A program made the translations under genes and the position numbers. Below are positions 9,789 to 34,392 of a stretch of 34,565 nucleotides of DNA, in pieces. Numbering within the stretch: the stretch's first letter is position 1; every line of letters starts with the position of its first letter. Source of the stretch: Chitinophaga pinensis (GTDB lineage Bacteria > Bacteroidota > Bacteroidia > UKL13-3); contig CAMCEM010000014.1 of the NCBI GenBank assembly GCA_945873755.1, forward strand, positions 1 to 34,565. Direction: 5' to 3'. The notes under the pieces were generated by a model, which saw only the letters and a program-made list of their open reading frames with translations, did no database searches and was not told the origin of the DNA.

Positions 9789-12344
9789 ATGGCAAAGAAA
9801 AATACTGGAAATAAAGTTTTATTGGGCGATGTTAAAGACTTTGAAGAGTTAGACGAACCTGTAAATAAAAAAAATAGTTCAAAAAGTAAAAATCCTATTG
9901 GTTTTTTTTCTTTTTTAAGTGATGAAAGATTCTTAAAATCATTGGGAATAACATTCATTTTGTTTTCGGTTTTTTTATTATTAGCAGGAATTTCGTTTTT
10001 ATTTACTTGGCAAGCCGATCAAAGTTTAGTTAAAAACATGAGCTTTGGTTACTTTCAAATTTCAACCGAAACAGTTGCAAAAAATGCTTTAGGAAATTTA
10101 GGTGCTTGGTTAGGATTTATATTTATTTACAAAGGATTTGGTGTTGCATCGTTTGCTATTTGTATAATTTTCTTTTCTATTGGGCTTTATTTATTAACTA
10201 AATTACAGCCTATACCAATAATTAAAACTTTAAAATATTCTTTCTTTTCAACCATTTGGCTTTCGCTTGTTTTTGGACTAATATTTAATCAAACCTATCA
10301 AATTTTAGGTGGAGTTTTCGGTCATTTTGGAATAATTTATTTAAAAATTATTGTTGGCGATATTGGAACAGTACTTTTTTTAATTTCATATATTTTAATA
10401 TTTGCTGTTGCATTATTTAATATTGAATTCTATCAACCTAATTTTAAATTAAAGTCTGAACTTTTATTTGAACCTAATTTATCAAATAGTCAAGCAGAAG
10501 ATAGTTTTAAAAATAGCAATAAAGAAAATACAGTAAACGGAGAAATTACAATAGCAAAAGGTATTGATTTACCACCTTTGGACAGTGAAGATTTTATATT
10601 AATAGAAAAGCCAATTGAAAACATAGTTCCCATTGAGGAAGACAATTTTCCGGAAGATAAAACTGCAAACGATTTGTTATTAAACGAAGTTGAAAAACAA
10701 AATGATTTAAACCAAAATTCAATAGCTGAAGTTCCTAATTTAAAAATAGATAGTGGTTTAGTTTTACAAGTAAATGAATTGCCAGAGGAAGAGGTTATTG
10801 AAACAAATAAAAAGCATTTTGGCATAGATGAAGCATACGATCCAACATTAGAGTTTAGTGGCTACAAGTTTCCGGGAATAGATTTACTTACAGATTATGG
10901 TGACAATAAATCGAAGATTGATACCAATGAGTTAAGTGAAAAAACCCGAATGATTGAGGAAACACTTAAAAATTATAATATTGGAATTAAAAAAATATCA
11001 GCTACAGTTGGGCCAACTGTTACTCTTTATGAAATAATACCACAAGATGGCGTAAGGATAGCAAAAATTAAAAACTTAGAAGATGATATTGCGCTTAGTT
11101 TGGCAGCGTTGGGAATAAGGATAATTGCTCCAATTCCGGGAAGAGGAACTATAGGTATTGAAGTACCAAACTCTAACCCTGCGATGGTTCCAATGCGGAG
11201 TTTAATTAGTTCAGCAAAATTTGCAAATACCGATATGGATTTACCAATAGCTTTTGGCAAAACTATTTCGAACGAAGTGTTTGTAGCTGATTTAGCCAAA
11301 ATGCCACATTTATTAATGGCAGGTGCTACTGGACAAGGAAAATCGGTTGGGTTAAATGCTATTTTAGTTTCATTATTATATAAAAAACATCCTTCGCAAA
11401 TTAAGTTTGTTTTAGTTGATCCAAAGAAAGTAGAATTAAATATTTATAAAACAATTGAGCGACATTTTTTAGCTAAAATACCCGGTGATGCTGATGCAAT
11501 TATTACCGATACAAAATTAGTTGTAAGTACATTAAGTTCACTTTGTAAAGAAATGGACGAAAGGTATGATTTATTAAAAGACGCCCAAGTAAGGAACTTA
11601 AAAGAATACAATGCTAAATTTTTGAGCAGAAGATTAGCACCGACTGACAAATTAGCCCATCGTTTTTTACCTTATATAGTTGTAGTTATTGATGAATTAG
11701 CCGATTTAATGATGACAGCCGGTAAAGAAGTAGAACTGCCAATTGCCCGTTTAGCACAGTTGGCTCGTGCTATTGGAATTCATTTAATATTAGCAACTCA
11801 AAGGCCATCAGTTAATATTATTACAGGTACTATTAAAGCTAATTTCCCTGCAAGGTTGGCTTTTAGGGTTTCACAAAAAATTGATTCAAGAACTATTTTA
11901 GATGCCAATGGTGCTGATCAATTAATAGGAAAAGGCGATATGCTTTTTAGTAATGGAAACGATTTAGTAAGGATTCAATGTGCTTTTGTTGATACACCTG
12001 AAGTAGAAAGAATTGCTGAATTCATTGGAAGTCAAAAAGGAAATGAACCTTACTTATTACCATTAGTAAGTTTAGAAGGTGATGAAAGTGGAATAGGTGG
12101 TGAAATGTTTGATAGCAAAGACAAAGATGAACTATTTAACGAAGCCGCTCACTTAATTGTTTCTAGTCAACAAGGCTCTACATCGCTACTTCAACGTAAG
12201 CTAAACTTAGGTTATAATAGAGCAGGACGATTAATTGATCAATTAGAAAAAGCGGGAATTGTTGGCCCTTTTAAAGGTAGTAAAGCAAGAGAAGTATTAA
12301 TAATTGATATAGTTGAATTGGAAGAAAGGTTGAAACATTTGTAA
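9789..12344 (+). CDS. ftsK: DNA translocase FtsK/SpoIIIE
   Basis: Septum-anchored ATP-driven DNA pump that clears and sorts chromosome ends during division. The 851-residue protein begins with a short basic segment and about four transmembrane helices (about 52-73, 103-135, 150-170, 178-212). An acidic linker of about 140 residues follows (Glu/Asp/Asn rich, about 225-360), then the motor. The motor has Walker A GATGQGKS (about 512-519), DPKKVELN, and Walker B VVVIDELADLMM (about 628-640). The C-terminal winged-helix gamma domain (SLLQRKLNLGYNRAGRLIDQLEKAGIVGP) reads KOPS-like orienting sites. It ends immediately (0 bases) before the stop of a convergent small gene, so no terminator separates the two. 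Confidence 0.96.
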   Translation: MAKKNTGNKVLLGDVKDFEELDEPVNKKNSSKSKNPIGFFSFLSDERFLKSLGITFILFSVFLLLAGISFLFTWQADQSLVKNMSFGYFQISTETVAKNALGNLGAWLGFIFIYKGFGVASFAICIIFFSIGLYLLTKLQPIPIIKTLKYSFFSTIWLSLVFGLIFNQTYQILGGVFGHFGIIYLKIIVGDIGTVLFLISYILIFAVALFNIEFYQPNFKLKSELLFEPNLSNSQAEDSFKNSNKENTVNGEITIAKGIDLPPLDSEDFILIEKPIENIVPIEEDNFPEDKTANDLLLNEVEKQNDLNQNSIAEVPNLKIDSGLVLQVNELPEEEVIETNKKHFGIDEAYDPTLEFSGYKFPGIDLLTDYGDNKSKIDTNELSEKTRMIEETLKNYNIGIKKISATVGPTVTLYEIIPQDGVRIAKIKNLEDDIALSLAALGIRIIAPIPGRGTIGIEVPNSNPAMVPMRSLISSAKFANTDMDLPIAFGKTISNEVFVADLAKMPHLLMAGATGQGKSVGLNAILVSLLYKKHPSQIKFVLVDPKKVELNIYKTIERHFLAKIPGDADAIITDTKLVVSTLSSLCKEMDERYDLLKDAQVRNLKEYNAKFLSRRLAPTDKLAHRFLPYIVVVIDELADLMMTAGKEVELPIARLAQLARAIGIHLILATQRPSVNIITGTIKANFPARLAFRVSQKIDSRTILDANGADQLIGKGDMLFSNGNDLVRIQCAFVDTPEVERIAEFIGSQKGNEPYLLPLVSLEGDESGIGGEMFDSKDKDELFNEAAHLIVSSQQGSTSLLQRKLNLGYNRAGRLIDQLEKAGIVGPFKGSKAREVLIIDIVELEERLKHL

Positions 12345-13844: not shown

Positions 13845-16258
13845 TTAAAATTTTATTCGAATACCTACCCAAATATTTCTACCAGCAGCACTAACACCCG
13901 ATGAAAAAACTCGGTATTGAATATCTGTAATATTATCAATACCTGCTTGAAGTTGTGTTTTAAATTTTTTACCTAATGTGTATTGTGCTTTCATATTAAT
14001 AATATACCATGCAGGCGAACCTTTAGGAGTAGCATACATGGCATTGTCTTCGCCATTAATATTAAAATCATTTAAGTATTTCCAACCATTATAAACTAAA
14101 CTAATTTCAGTATTTAGTTTATTTTTATTAAATGAAATTGCACTTTTACCAAAAATTGGAGGAATATGGTCTAATGGAGTTTCAGTGTTGTTTGTAATAA
14201 TTCTTCCATACGTATAGTTAAGCGAAGAATATAACATAACAGTTTTCCATAAATCGATTGAAAGTTGCATGTTATACCCATATATATAAGCTTGTTGCGC
14301 ATTTTGATTGCTATAAATCTTTGTATTTATTCCATTATAAAAAGCAGAATCTTGTCCATTTAACGTACTTTCCTTTACTACAATGGCATTTTTTATATCT
14401 GTAAAAAACAGAACTCCTTCCAGTTTTATTTTAGTAATAGCAATAGCACTAAAACCTAATTCGTAATTTATGGTATTTTCAGGTTTTAAATTAGCATTGG
14501 GAATAATTATGGCTTCTCCTGCTTTGCTATCAAATACTTTGCTCACATCATCTACATTAGGCGCTCTAAATGCAGATGATAAATTACTATATATTTTAAT
14601 ACTTTTATTGGGATTAAATACCAAACCCAAATTGCCATTTAAGGCAGTGTTATTTTGTACTAAACTATTATTTAAAAATGGAAAAAAGTTTTGTTATTAA
14701 AGTTAGATTTTAAGTTTACATAATTTAACCGCAACCCATCACTTACAATAAATTTTTTCCCAATTTCCCACGAATGACTAACAAATACGGCCATATAAAC
14801 CATATTACTTCCTCCATCAGGATAGCGGGTTGGAATCATTGTAATTCCACCATTTTTTATATTTTCATCGTGAGCATTTGAAGCAACATAATTGTACTGT
14901 CCATCTATTCCATATCTAATTTCATGGATAGAATTTTTATTTTGCTTAATTGACTTTATTATATCTAAATTTAAACTAGTTACATGAACATATTCACTTC
15001 GTTTGTTTAAATAAACTTCTTGCCAATTTCTATCAAATCTACTTTCTTCAATATATTGGAAAGCCAATGTTAATTTATAGTTATCAGCTAATTTGCTTTT
15101 AACAAACTTGTTTAAGTTATATGATGTTAAAAAATGTAATTCTGGACCATAATACCACTCAGCACTTCTATAATTTTTAGTACCTTTCCATTGATTTAAT
15201 CTATCGAATCGGGGAACATTACCAGTATTACTTAATTGAAAGGTTAAAACATGATTGGTTTTTTTATTGGCTGCAAATAATAATTTATACATTAAATTGT
15301 ATTGGCTGTAAGCAGAACCAATTTGTAAGCTAGGGTCACTATTTTTAAGCATAGTATCTCTATTATTTATTCGCCCTGCATAATAATTGCGTTGGTAAAT
15401 GCTATCGCCATCAATACTTTCTTTATTTGTTCCTTGGCGTAAATCATAAAAATTACTATTTGTAAAACTTAAAAGGTGAGCCCATTTTTTAAATCCTAAA
15501 TTTACATGATAATGAAATTTAGATTCATTATTTACATTACCAAATCTATAAAATGCATTGTTTTCAATTGAATTAAGTTTTGGCTTTAAAGTTTCGAAAT
15601 ACAAAACCCCGCCTAAAGCATCGCTGCCATATATTACGCTACCACCGCCAAATAATACCTCTGTTCTATTTAAAGTATTTTGGTCAATACGCAGTACGTT
15701 TTGCAAATGTCCTCCTCTGTAAATGGCATTGTTCATTCTAATACCATCAATAACTAATAAAACTCGGTTCGATTCAAAACCTCTTAAAACCGGACTTCCG
15801 CCACCTTGCTGACTTTTTTGTACAAACACAGCACCACTGTTTTCTAATAAATCGGCTGTATTTTGTCGGTTTTGGAAACTAATTTCCTTTTGATTAATAG
15901 AATAAATTTGTCGCGGTAAATCTTTTTTATATTCATAAAATTTATTGGCTGAAACAACAATTTCATTTAATTTTAGAATAGAAGGAACTAAATAAAAAAT
16001 TAAAGTATCAACTTTGGTAAAAATTGATTTTGTTTGTTCTTTATAATCACTATTTTTTATTGTAAATAGTTTGTACTTGAATAATTCGTATTGGTTTTTG
16101 ATTGTATTATTTTAAAAAATAGTACTATCAGTAATTTCTAATTGATATTCTAAAATTGGTTCTTTAGTGTTTTTATCGAAAACTAAAATATTTTGTGCTT
16201 TTGAAAAATTGAAAATAAAAAGTAATTGAAGTAAAAAAAATTGTTGTTTTATTTTCAT
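13845..16258 (-). pseudogene. TonB-dependent outer membrane receptor (haem-receptor-like), broken by a stop and a frameshift
   Basis: Reading from ATG at 16258 gives a signal peptide (MKIKQQFFLLQLLFIFNFSKA), a partial carboxypeptidase-like domain, then TAA at codon 49 (16114-16112). The same frame continues through LNEIVVSANKF and the plug domain (GGGSPVLRGFESNRVLLVID, 15807-15748) to a premature stop at 14672. Adding one T in the minus-strand T6 tract (14682-14687) joins this to the last ORF (14630 to 13845), which includes AFRAPNVDDVSK and the terminal strand NIWVGIRIKF. With that base the span is exactly 805 codons, so only these two lesions exist. The plug resembles receptors of the haemin/haemoglobin group, but the ligand is uncertain. 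As written it cannot make a full receptor. Confidence 0.88.
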
Positions 16259-23213: not shown

Positions 23214-24400
23214 CTAATAAATAAAGCTTGCCAATATACAAATTATTACTATTACTGGACTTGGTACTCTTGTTGTCAAAAGTAAAAATAAAGTGAGTAA
23301 AAGTACAATCATATTTGGTTGATTTAAAACAACTGGTTTAAAAAGTAAATAAGCCGAAGCAATAACTAATCCAGCACTGGCAGCATTTATACCTTCAATT
23401 GCATTTTTAATAGGGGTAAAATTTTTTATTTTATTCCAAATTGGGTAAACAAAAAATATGAGCAATGCCCCTGGTAAAAAAATAGCAATAGTGCCAATTA
23501 TTGCGCCAATTAATTGCCCACCTATTCCCAACTCCTTTAAAGCCATAGCATTACAATAAGTGGCAATACTAAAAACCGGACCAGGCATTGCTTGAACCAA
23601 ACCAACACCAGCCAAAAATTCATTTGCTGTTAGGTATTGTTTAATTTCTACAAACTGATTAAACATTAAAGGAATTAATACAAAACCACCACCAAATACT
23701 ATGCTTCCATACCTGTAAGTATTTTCAAAAAGTAATGAAAATTTATTTTGTGTAAATGCTCCCAAAATTGCTGCAAAAAGTAAAACGCTTAGAAATAGAA
23801 TAAAATTACTCCAATTAATATTTTTAATAGGTTTTACTTTTACTCCTTTTTCTTTATTAACTTGGTTTGAAATGATACCACCAATCAATAATAATATTGG
23901 AAATAAATATGGAGTTTGAAAAATAATTGCAACTATGGCAGAGAGTAAAAGTAAAATCCAATGAAATGTTTTTGAAATAAACATTTGTATAATTTGATAA
24001 GCAGCATATATAATAAACCCAACAGCCATTGGTTGCATGTATTTTAAAAAATCTAGTTTAGGATTATCAATATTATACCAATGAATAATTATTGCAAAAA
24101 AAGTCATTATTAAACAAGCTGGCAAAACCCAAATTGCTAAAGTAAAAAATGCCAATGTTGGTCCACCTATTTTAAAACCAATAGCAGTAATAGTTTGTGT
24201 TGAAGTAGGGCCTGGTAACATGCTACACAAAGAGTTTAGTTCTTTCAAATCATCATCATTAATAAATTTCTTTTTTTTAACTAATAATTTTTGAAACATT
24301 ACTAAATGTATTTGTGGTCCGCCAAATGCTGTTAATGCTAGTTTTAATACATTAATTAAAAAAAGAATATTTCTAAATTTTTAATTTTTGATAGTTCCAT
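23214..24400 (-). CDS. chrA: Chromate transporter ChrA, frameshifted near its start
   Basis: A CHR-family inner membrane transporter that exports chromate. Both CHR halves are present: LKLALTAFGGPQIHLV in the first and GSIVFGGGFVLIPLMFNQFV with QAMPGPVFS in the second. About ten hydrophobic helices are visible. The in-frame ATG at 24299 cuts off the conserved first helix. That helix is encoded just upstream, but no ATG, GTG or TTG lies in frame before a stop. Adding one T to the T7 tract (plus-strand A7 at 24358-24364) joins it to an ATG at 24400 and gives MELSKIKNLEIFFF followed by the helix, a 395-residue protein of normal length. As written the gene is shifted; see the finding. Confidence 0.82.
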
Positions 24401-24454: not shown

Positions 24455-24491
24455 AACAAAAAAGGCTAAATTTTAATAAATTTAGCCTTTT
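24455..24491. terminator. Terminator after folE (works on both strands)
   Basis: A perfect 14-bp stem, AAAAGGCTAAATTT (24460-24473) with AAATTTAGCCTTTT (24478-24491), has a 4-base loop. Read on the minus strand it follows the folE stop by about 25 bases and ends in a T run (T5-7 down to 24455). Confidence 0.88.
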
Positions 24492-24515: not shown

Positions 24516-25172
24516 TTAAGATTTAAGCGTTATATATTTCATTAGCTCTTCTCTAGTGCTATTGTCTAAAAATTTTCCAGTAAATTCACTTGTAACAGTA
24601 CTGCTATTGATATCTTGCACTCCACGCATTGCAACACACATGTGATCGGCTTCAATGATAACTGCAACACTTTCAGAATTTAACTCTTCTCTTAGCATAT
24701 TTACTATTTGTATAGTCATTCTTTCTTGAACTTGTGGGCGCTGAGCAAAGTATTTTACTATTCTATTTAATTTTGATAAGCCTACTACTTTACCATTGGG
24801 AATATAAGCTAAATGCGCTTTTCCTACAATTGGCACAAAATGATGCTCGCAAACGCTATGAAATGAAATGTTTTTTTCCAATAAAATATTTTTATAATTA
24901 TATCTATTTTCAAACAACTTTACTTCAGGTTTATTTTTAGGATTTAAACCACTAAATATTTCGTTAACATACATTTTAGCTACTCTGTTGGGTGTTCCCT
25001 TTAAGCTATCGTCACTTAGGTCTAACCCTAGTATTTGCATTATCTCTTTAAAATGCTTACTTATTAACTCAATTTTTAATTCATCATCAAGTTTAAAAGC
25101 ATCTTCTCTTAGCGGTGTTTCAAGTGAAAAACCTTCTAAATTATTTTCTAAAATTTCTTTATTAATTTCCAT
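24516..25172 (-). CDS. folE: GTP cyclohydrolase I
   Basis: Opens the GTP ring to make 7,8-dihydroneopterin triphosphate, the entry to folate, biopterin and queuosine. The 218 residues match type IA enzymes. Zinc ligands are Cys108 and His111 in SVCEHHFVPIVG, and the Cys of DHMCVAMRGVQ (about 175-185). PNGKVVGLSKLNRIVKYFAQRPQVQERM is the family's signature. The extra N-terminal 35 residues are typical of Bacteroidota forms. Its start overlaps the end of the pterin synthase gene by 11 bases, so the two are translationally linked. A strong terminator follows. Confidence 0.95.
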   Translation of the reverse strand: MEINKEILENNLEGFSLETPLREDAFKLDDELKIELISKHFKEIMQILGLDLSDDSLKGTPNRVAKMYVNEIFSGLNPKNKPEVKLFENRYNYKNILLEKNISFHSVCEHHFVPIVGKAHLAYIPNGKVVGLSKLNRIVKYFAQRPQVQERMTIQIVNMLREELNSESVAVIIEADHMCVAMRGVQDINSSTVTSEFTGKFLDNSTREELMKYITLKS

Positions 25173-25572
25173 TGTATTCTACAAAATTGCGTTCTGTTTC
25201 AAACAAAACTACTTTCAGTTTTAAATTGGTGTTTATTTTATTTTTAATTATGTTGTATATTACTATTGCTATATTTTCTGCTGTTGGATTTAAATTTTTA
25301 AATTCTTCAGTGTCTAAATTTAAGTTTTTGTGGTCAAACTTATCCTCAACATCTGTTTTAATTATATCTTTCAATATTTTCAAATCAAACAAATACCCTG
25401 ATTCTTCATCAAGTTGACCCGTAACTGTTACAACCAATTCGTAGTTATGGCCATGAAAGTTTTCATTGTTACATAAGCCAAAAACAGCTTTATTTTTTTC
25501 TTTACTCCAACCATCTACATTTAATCTATGCGCTGCATTAAAATGCGATTTTCTGGATACTGATATCTCCAT
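25162..25572 (-). CDS. queD: 6-pyruvoyl/6-carboxy-tetrahydropterin synthase
   Basis: Converts the folE product, dihydroneopterin triphosphate, to 6-carboxy- or 6-pyruvoyl-tetrahydropterin. The 136 residues hold the three zinc histidines, His15 (FNAAHRL), His40 and His42 (FHGHNY), and the catalytic Cys34 in GLCNNENFHGH. The spacing of Cys to HGH (five residues between) and the words CNN, HGHNYELVVTV and DHKNLN match animal 6-pyruvoyltetrahydropterin synthase more closely than E. coli QueD, which has three residues between. Later residues TAENIA and FETERN supply the active-site Glu. Linked to folE by overlap; whether the path goes to queuosine or to a biopterin is open, hence the symbol is tentative. 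Confidence 0.88.
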   Translation of the reverse strand: MEISVSRKSHFNAAHRLNVDGWSKEKNKAVFGLCNNENFHGHNYELVVTVTGQLDEESGYLFDLKILKDIIKTDVEDKFDHKNLNLDTEEFKNLNPTAENIAIVIYNIIKNKINTNLKLKVVLFETERNFVEYNGN

Positions 25573-32080: not shown

Positions 32081-33073
32081 ATGCAAAAACAAAAGGTAAA
32101 TACCATTCAAATGCAGCAAATATTAGTAGCGGTTTCCGTTATTTTATTTGTAATGAAAATGATAGCTTGGATGCTCACTTCATCGGTAGCTATTTTAACA
32201 GATGCACTAGAAAGTACTGTGAATGTAATTGCAGGCTTTATAGGTTTGTACAGCATTATTTTATCATCGAAACCAAAAGATAAAGAGCATCCATATGGAC
32301 ATGGAAAAGTTGAATTTATTTCATCGGCTTTCGAAGGTTTGTTAATCAGTTTTGCTGGACTAATTATTATATATGAAGCCATTAATAATTTTATTCACCC
32401 GCATGAATTAAAGCAATTAGATTATGGTTTGATTTTGATAGCCATTACATCGGCTGTAAATTATTTTGTAGGTCATTTATGTGTTACAAAAGGTAAAAAA
32501 GAAAACTCGCCAATATTAATTGCTAGTGGCACGCATTTAAAATCAGATACCTATTCAACCCTTGGATTATTAGTTGGTTTGGGTTTAATTATGATTACAG
32601 GATATGCATGGATTGATAGTTTAACAGCTATTATTTTTGCTTTTGTAATTATTTATACTGGCTACAAAATTATTCGCAAATCGCTTTCAGGTATGATGGA
32701 TGAAACCGATGAAGAAATTATTGCTGATATTGTAAAAGTACTGAACGAAAACAGGAAAAATGATTGCATTGATGTTCATAATATGCGTGTAATAAATTAT
32801 GCTGGAAATTATCACATCGACTGTCATTTAACGGTACCGTTTTTTATAAACGTAAATGAAGCACACAATATTTTAGATACTTTAACCGATTTACTTAAAA
32901 AACATTTTGACGACAGAGTTGAATTTTTTATCCATGTTGATGGCTGTCTATTTACCCAATGTACTATATGCAATGTTCAAAATTGCGAAGTTAGAAAAGA
33001 AAAATTTGTTCATAAAATCGAATGGACACAAGAAAACATTTTATCAAATAAAAAACACATTTTAGAACAATGA
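32081..33073 (+). CDS. Cation diffusion facilitator with a cysteine-rich C-terminus
   Basis: A proton-coupled metal exporter of the CDF family, moving divalent metal from cytosol to periplasm, where the RND complex could take over. The 330 residues have six helices (about 12-32, 46-62, 84-101, 114-132, 158-175, 180-197) and a cytosolic ferredoxin-like domain. Metal-site residues are His152 and Asp156 (HLKSDT) in TM5. TM2 has Asp41 in TDALEST but lacks the second Asp four residues on, as in one CDF subgroup. The C-terminal tail adds CLFTQCTICNVQNC, four cysteines suited to metal binding. It starts 1 base after the TolC-type gene's stop, and its own stop overlaps an ATG (33070). Confidence 0.92.
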   Translation: MQKQKVNTIQMQQILVAVSVILFVMKMIAWMLTSSVAILTDALESTVNVIAGFIGLYSIILSSKPKDKEHPYGHGKVEFISSAFEGLLISFAGLIIIYEAINNFIHPHELKQLDYGLILIAITSAVNYFVGHLCVTKGKKENSPILIASGTHLKSDTYSTLGLLVGLGLIMITGYAWIDSLTAIIFAFVIIYTGYKIIRKSLSGMMDETDEEIIADIVKVLNENRKNDCIDVHNMRVINYAGNYHIDCHLTVPFFINVNEAHNILDTLTDLLKKHFDDRVEFFIHVDGCLFTQCTICNVQNCEVRKEKFVHKIEWTQENILSNKKHILEQ

Positions 33074-33258
33074 AAAATCAGCATCTAGCAACTAGCTTCT
33101 GGCCACTAGCAAAAAACAATAAGCTCCCGATAAGTCGGGTTGTCATCCTGAGCGGAGTCGAAGGAGGCAATAAACAATATGCAATAAGTAATGAGCAATT
33201 CGTTAATGAACGTCATTGCGAGCGAAGTGTGGCAATCTCAAGTCAATCAAATACAATC
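33074..33258. repeat. Mosaic of interspersed repeats upstream of the fusion-protein gene
   Basis: Pieces in order: CTAGCAACTAGCTTCTGGCC and flanks (33085-33111); the small palindrome CCCGA-TAAG-TCGGG (33126-33139); TCATCCTGAGCGGAGTCGAA (from 33143), a word I know as a common Bacteroidota interspersed repeat; GCAATA/GCAATT words (33167-33200); and GTCATTGCGAGCGAAGTGTG with GCAATCTC after it (33212-33239), another widespread repeat. The stretch is open in the frame of the next gene from ATG 33070, but the encoded words (VILSGVEGG, RHCERSVAIS) are simply repeat translations. Confidence 0.75.
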
Positions 33259-34392
33259 ATGCAAAAAATAAAAACCATTTTATTATTTGTAGTATCAACT
33301 TTTATTGTTGCCTGCGGCAATGATAAAACAGAAAAAAAAACTGCGGAAACAGCTAATCCTGCAATGGTAAGTTTAACCAATGAGCAACTAACTAATGCCA
33401 ATGTGGTGTTAGGAAAATTTGAGCAAAAAAGCATATCAAGTATTTTAAAAGTAAATGGAAAAATAGATGTTCCACCACAAAACATGGTATCGGTAAGTGT
33501 GCCTTTGGGTGGTTATTTAAAATCGACCAAACTATTACCAGGCATGCATGTAAGCAAAGGAGAGGTGATTGCAGTAATGGAAGACCAACAGTACATTCAA
33601 TTGCAACAAGATTATTTATTGGCCAAAGCCAAACTAAATTTTATTCAAAGTGAATACAACCGACAAAAAGAACTAAACCAAAGCAAAGCCAGTAGCGATA
33701 AGATTTTTCAACAAACCGAATCAGAGTTTATTTCTCAAAAAATTACTTTAAAATCATTGGCAGAAAAGTTAAAATTAATTGGCCTTAATCCTGAAACAGT
33801 GAATGAAAATACAATTTCAAAAAGTATCAATATTTATTCGCCCATTAACGGATATGTTACCATGGTTAACGTAAACATTGGCAAATACTCACAACCAAGC
33901 GAGGTATTATTTGAACTAGTAAATCCCACGGATATTCACTTGGCATTAACTATTTTTGAAAAGGATTTGGCTCAAATAGAAATTGGACAAAAATTGGTGG
34001 CTTATACCAACAATAAACCTAATGAAAAACATCCATGTGAGATTATTTTGGTGGGTCATTCGGTATCAAAAGATAGGATTACAGAAGTGCATTGCCACTT
34101 TTTAGATTACGACAGAACCTTGCTTCCGGGCATGTATATGAATGCCGAAATTGAACTAAAAAACAACAAAGTAAATTCACTTCCTGTTGATGCCATTGTT
34201 AAGTTTGAAGGCAATCAATATGTGTTTGTAGCTATTGATAAAAACAATTTTGAAATGATACCAGTAACTGTTGGTGCAACTGAAAATGGTTATATTGAAA
34301 TAGTAAATGCCAAAGATTTTGATAACAAAAAAATTGTAACACAAGGTACATATAACTTACTAATGAAAAGCAAGAACAAAGCGGAGGAATAA
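33259..34392 (+). CDS. Periplasmic membrane-fusion lipoprotein (CusB/CzcB/HlyD family)
   Basis: The adaptor that links the RND pump to the outer membrane channel. The frame is open from 33070, but the first 63 residues are repeat-derived; ATG 33259 gives a proper lipoprotein signal, MQKIKTILLFVVSTFIVAC, with Cys19. The 377-residue product has a beta-barrel strand (VLKVNGKIDVPPQNMVSVSV), a lipoyl half-motif (GGYLKSTKLLPGMHVSKGEVIAVMED), a coiled-coil hairpin (about 110-180), the second lipoyl half (IYSPINGYVTMVNVNIGKYS) and a terminal domain (LPVDAIVKFEGNQYVFVAI). No His/Met-rich metal-binding N-terminus is seen. It closes the operon. Confidence 0.9.
   Translation: MQKIKTILLFVVSTFIVACGNDKTEKKTAETANPAMVSLTNEQLTNANVVLGKFEQKSISSILKVNGKIDVPPQNMVSVSVPLGGYLKSTKLLPGMHVSKGEVIAVMEDQQYIQLQQDYLLAKAKLNFIQSEYNRQKELNQSKASSDKIFQQTESEFISQKITLKSLAEKLKLIGLNPETVNENTISKSINIYSPINGYVTMVNVNIGKYSQPSEVLFELVNPTDIHLALTIFEKDLAQIEIGQKLVAYTNNKPNEKHPCEIILVGHSVSKDRITEVHCHFLDYDRTLLPGMYMNAEIELKNNKVNSLPVDAIVKFEGNQYVFVAIDKNNFEMIPVTVGATENGYIEIVNAKDFDNKKIVTQGTYNLLMKSKNKAEE

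Follow-up and report, generated by a model that had tools for sequence, protein, structure and literature searches.

The closest described relatives of the gene considered here are the two-domain members of the CHR (ChrA, chromate transporter) family, with which it shares two PF02417 domains in one frame; its sole departure from that family is a frame break near the start, seen in this one draft genome. A parallel for the break itself is offered by the 5' poly(A) tract (A7/A6) of inlA in Listeria monocytogenes, where, according to the available part of the report (PMC2831843), an A run with one base fewer a few codons past the start likewise yields a very short peptide. For inlA, strain polymorphism and a reversion rate were measured, with A6 returning to A7 at about 5.5e-7, whereas for chrA there is one sequence, with a shorter run that is not conserved among the relatives. 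The words chromate transporter, phase variation and homopolymer also come together in a Mycoplasma bovis genome paper, one among the matches listed. Ordinary one-base frameshifts, such as those of draft genomes and recent pseudogenes, resemble chrA in that a gene conserved in all other respects lacks one base at an A/T run, and chrA is set apart from them only by the closeness of its break to the start.

Frame and start of chrA

The window, i.e. the whole stretch of DNA that was analysed, is contig C14 in its entirety (34,565 bases) and belongs to the draft genome of an uncultured member of the Bacteroidota (3.13 Mb in 202 contigs, 91% complete). The features in and around chrA are as follows:

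23214 to 24380, minus strand: transporter gene of the CHR family (PF02417), open main frame with 388 codons and a stop
24299 to 24352, minus strand: codons of the conserved first CHR helix, which would be lost with a start at 24299
24356 to 24400, minus strand: true start, ATG 24400-24398, deposited in another frame, with 14 codons and then TAA (from the orthologue alignment)
24358 to 24364, minus strand: T7 run named in the preliminary description, in register and not the break site (DNA alignment and frame-change scoring)
24375 to 24382, minus strand: A5T3 stretch, one base shorter than in same-genus orthologues, where the frame break is placed (DNA alignment and frame-change scoring)
24460 to 24491, minus strand: terminator-like hairpin of 14 pairs between folE and chrA (1 found vs. 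0.0 expected in shuffles)

The main frame stays open from 24380 to 23217, counts 361 codons from ATG 24299 and has no ATG, GTG or TTG ahead of that codon. As the preliminary description had it, the conserved first CHR helix (LKLALTAFGGPQIH) is encoded upstream of ATG 24299 in this same frame with no standard in-frame start codon before it, and the gene is one base out of frame near its start: ATG 24400 and the main frame differ, the frame of the former terminating at TAA 24358-24356 after 14 codons. A net change of one base fuses ATG 24400 to the main frame and gives 395 codons, the same length from ATG to stop as in all eight full-length same-genus orthologues.

The whole protein matches PF02417 with an E value of 1.2e-65, both Chromate_transp domains lie in one frame, and their scores of 122.7 and 110 bits pass the curated cut-off of 28.6, which places the gene in the family. 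Its predicted product is an ordinary two-domain CHR-family protein; a putative role in chromate transport or resistance may be assigned to it from the family name.

The genus set comprises ten genomes including this one, and the gene is present in all ten. Eight full-length orthologues were aligned, G001 being left out (its gene is split over two contigs and the start was not read). All eight begin at an ATG that aligns with 24400 and precedes the residue matching 24380 by seven codons, and the alignment thus shows ATG 24400, to which the preliminary description had joined the gene, to be the true start of chrA.

Position of the missing base

The T7 run to which the preliminary description had drawn attention does lie at 24358-24364, and one more T within it was proposed to restore a protein of 395 residues. 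One additional net base indeed gives 395 codons, but the site is the A5T3 stretch, and T7 is in register. In the DNA alignment of the eight orthologues the single gap falls in the A run at 24378-24382, with T7 aligned free of gaps; the exact site could also be the adjoining T3 (24375-24377). The residues KFRNILFL, encoded from upstream of T7 into T7, already read in the main frame and agree with the orthologues, and the break must therefore lie upstream of T7. When the point of frame change was slid along the sequence and scored against six orthologue N-termini (28 residues, BLOSUM62), the best fit was a change at 24379, with 19-22 identities out of 28 and BLOSUM62 sums of 92-107, and the worst was a change within T7, with 15-17 identities and sums of 71-78. 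T7 was rejected as the break site by both the alignment and this scoring, which show the break to sit in the A5T3 stretch, seven to eight codons past ATG 24400.

The A run reads A5 here, A6 in G003, G004 and G007, AAACGA in four others and AAACAC in G006; neither it nor T7 is conserved within the genus. The case may serve as a lesson, in that the eye-catching T7 keeps register and an inconspicuous A run close by is the one that lacks the base: in an AT-rich draft, a one-base break should be placed with the help of orthologues before a tract is named a switch.

Origin of the loss

Very probably, chrA is an ordinary CHR-family gene with a chance one-base loss at a short A run rather than an evolved switch. 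An ordinary two-domain gene has been deposited one base short in A5T3 (24375-24382), and initiation at 24400 as written gives a peptide of 14 residues and no transporter. On this reading the base dropped out by chance, through either a consensus error or a recent private mutation. We infer this chance origin, and also that the allele yields no functional protein.

The picture is that of a recent pseudogene or a consensus error, one disabling change in a gene that is otherwise conserved and that the relatives have intact. Compared with G004, chrA has a dN of 0.094 and a dS of 1.05 (dN/dS about 0.09), and these substitution rates show the rest of the gene to be under normal purifying selection. 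Faster evolution of chrA on this branch was considered and rejected, its dN to G006 (0.159) lying within the range of the other seven genomes (0.153-0.170). With the rest of the gene intact and no faster change on the branch, the event must be either very recent or not real. An error in the consensus of the draft genome, which the preliminary description had also named as a possible cause, stays a live option with roughly an even chance of being correct; a recent mutation confined to this population is somewhat less probable than that. Runs of A5 or A6 are short for a typical base-calling error. The shortness of the run, an in-frame stop in a TonB-dependent receptor gene of the window and the missing exact -7 element, both described below, lean towards real decay over error.

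Other readings of the break were weighed against this one. The gene might work as written, either from an ATT start (24368 or 24356) or by slippage of RNA polymerase or the ribosome at the A run, restoring the frame in part. Two in-frame ATT codons do precede the first helix, and normal purifying selection on chrA would agree with a working gene, but ATG is the start codon in eight of eight orthologues, a very recent event or an error would account for the selection just as well, and the A run is five bases long as compared with the nine from which selection against A/T runs, read as a sign of slippage, is evident in many bacteria in the available part of PMC1088944; such expression is accordingly improbable. 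Even less credence can be given to ATG 24299 as the normal start with no frameshift at all, a reading with next to no probability. Being the first ATG in frame, it is the gene caller's likely choice; however, the full-length same-genus orthologues rule it out, since all eight start 34 codons upstream, and the preliminary description's provision that orthologues might begin at 24299 applied, when checked, to none of them. The matching residue is Q rather than M in seven of the eight, and the conserved first helix would be cut off. The annotated start of chrA should be 24400 and not 24299.

Reversible slipped-strand phase variation, toggling the transporter on and off at T7 or at the A run, was the more striking suggestion of the preliminary description, which had placed it at T7. 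A run near the start is where a frameshift abolishes the product, and inlA (PMC2831843) shows that an A7/A6 run within the first few codons is able to switch between lengths. Against this, the break does not fall within the long mononucleotide run that was named, T7 being in register with the orthologues, while the A run is only five to six bases long and is replaced by AAACGA or AAACAC in five of eight same-genus orthologues, so that no run is kept in relatives with on and off states. Runs of such size are everywhere in this AT-rich genome (A5 422 and T7 29 times per 100 kb of its sampled coding DNA; the first 60 nt of an ORF contain 0.033 T7 runs on average), and the remaining frameshifted genes of the draft look alike. 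Orthologues occur in 63 of 64 family genomes, and full-length copies, taken as matches from residue 6 or before to residue 382 or beyond, in 57 of the 62 other genomes (G001, G033, G070, G081 and G082, with partial or split matches, were left out); an off state is seen in none of these 57 other copies, whose open frames run to 395-451 codons vs. 388 here. On-off switching at T7 is thus not supported, the site being wrong, the run not conserved and all 57 other copies open, and the sequences make phase variation unlikely and an evolved switch not the apparent explanation; our estimate for toggling at either tract is very low. It is just as doubtful that in this species chrA is reversibly turned on and off, at low frequency, through the A run that follows its start by seven to eight codons, much as at the A7/A6 run of inlA.

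Upstream region and other frameshifts

Upstream of chrA, the folE gene (GTP cyclohydrolase I) and a gene of the PTPS family overlap by 11 nt on the minus strand (24516-25572), and the strong terminator-like hairpin separates this pair from chrA. An RNA element was considered and rejected, no Rfam family reaching its gathering score in the window. A -7 promoter element, TANNTTTG, stands 9-11 nt before the ATG in seven of eight relatives (consensus from the accessible part of PMC6847099), and a conserved TATTTTTG of the -7 type is seen at that distance from the chrA ATG in the same-genus loci L004-L010 (seven of eight orthologues). In the window there is no exact -7 element before chrA, the best match being inexact and 17 nt away. 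G006, with an intact chrA, is likewise without an exact one, which makes the missing element a weak argument for a real mutation.

Frameshifts were surveyed in 40 stretches of the same genome (813,565 bases including the window), and the survey covered those genes for which the fetched stretches contained a relative at 60% identity or more. On this basis, which may miss short breaks near gene ends, three of 172 genes are frameshifted (chrA, a TonB-dependent receptor and a CorA-like protein), each lacking a single base at an A/T run; the corresponding figures are two of 197 in G004 (both in L172) and 0 of 123 in G007. Further flags were dropped on reading the alignments, since the stops lay where the query ran too long at its end or where the frame was probably antisense: window 33022-34389, window folE, L150 and L121 in the own genome, L163 and L090 in G004, and L069 and L195 in G007, together with L070 of that genome as the counterpart of window 33022-34389. 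Two of 24 genes in the window are frameshifted vs. one of 148 elsewhere (Fisher P = 0.051), a difference that we do not press because the comparison of the window drew in addition on stretches selected for lying beside chrA.

The TonB-dependent receptor gene (13848-16213, minus strand) has its Plug and barrel domains in two ORFs. It is interrupted twice, by the loss of one base near 14594-14693, next to a T6 run, and by an in-frame stop close to the start; in G004 the homologue reads through as one open frame. The membrane-protein gene at L139:17463-18361 (contig C1 of the same genome), which from its sequence features we take to be CorA-like, has a frameshift towards its 3' end, where a T8 run lacks one base relative to G007. 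The two genes of L172 (contig C12 of G004) lie near 11390 and 19520 and are frameshifted relative to their homologues in the present genome, the first being one T short outside any long run.
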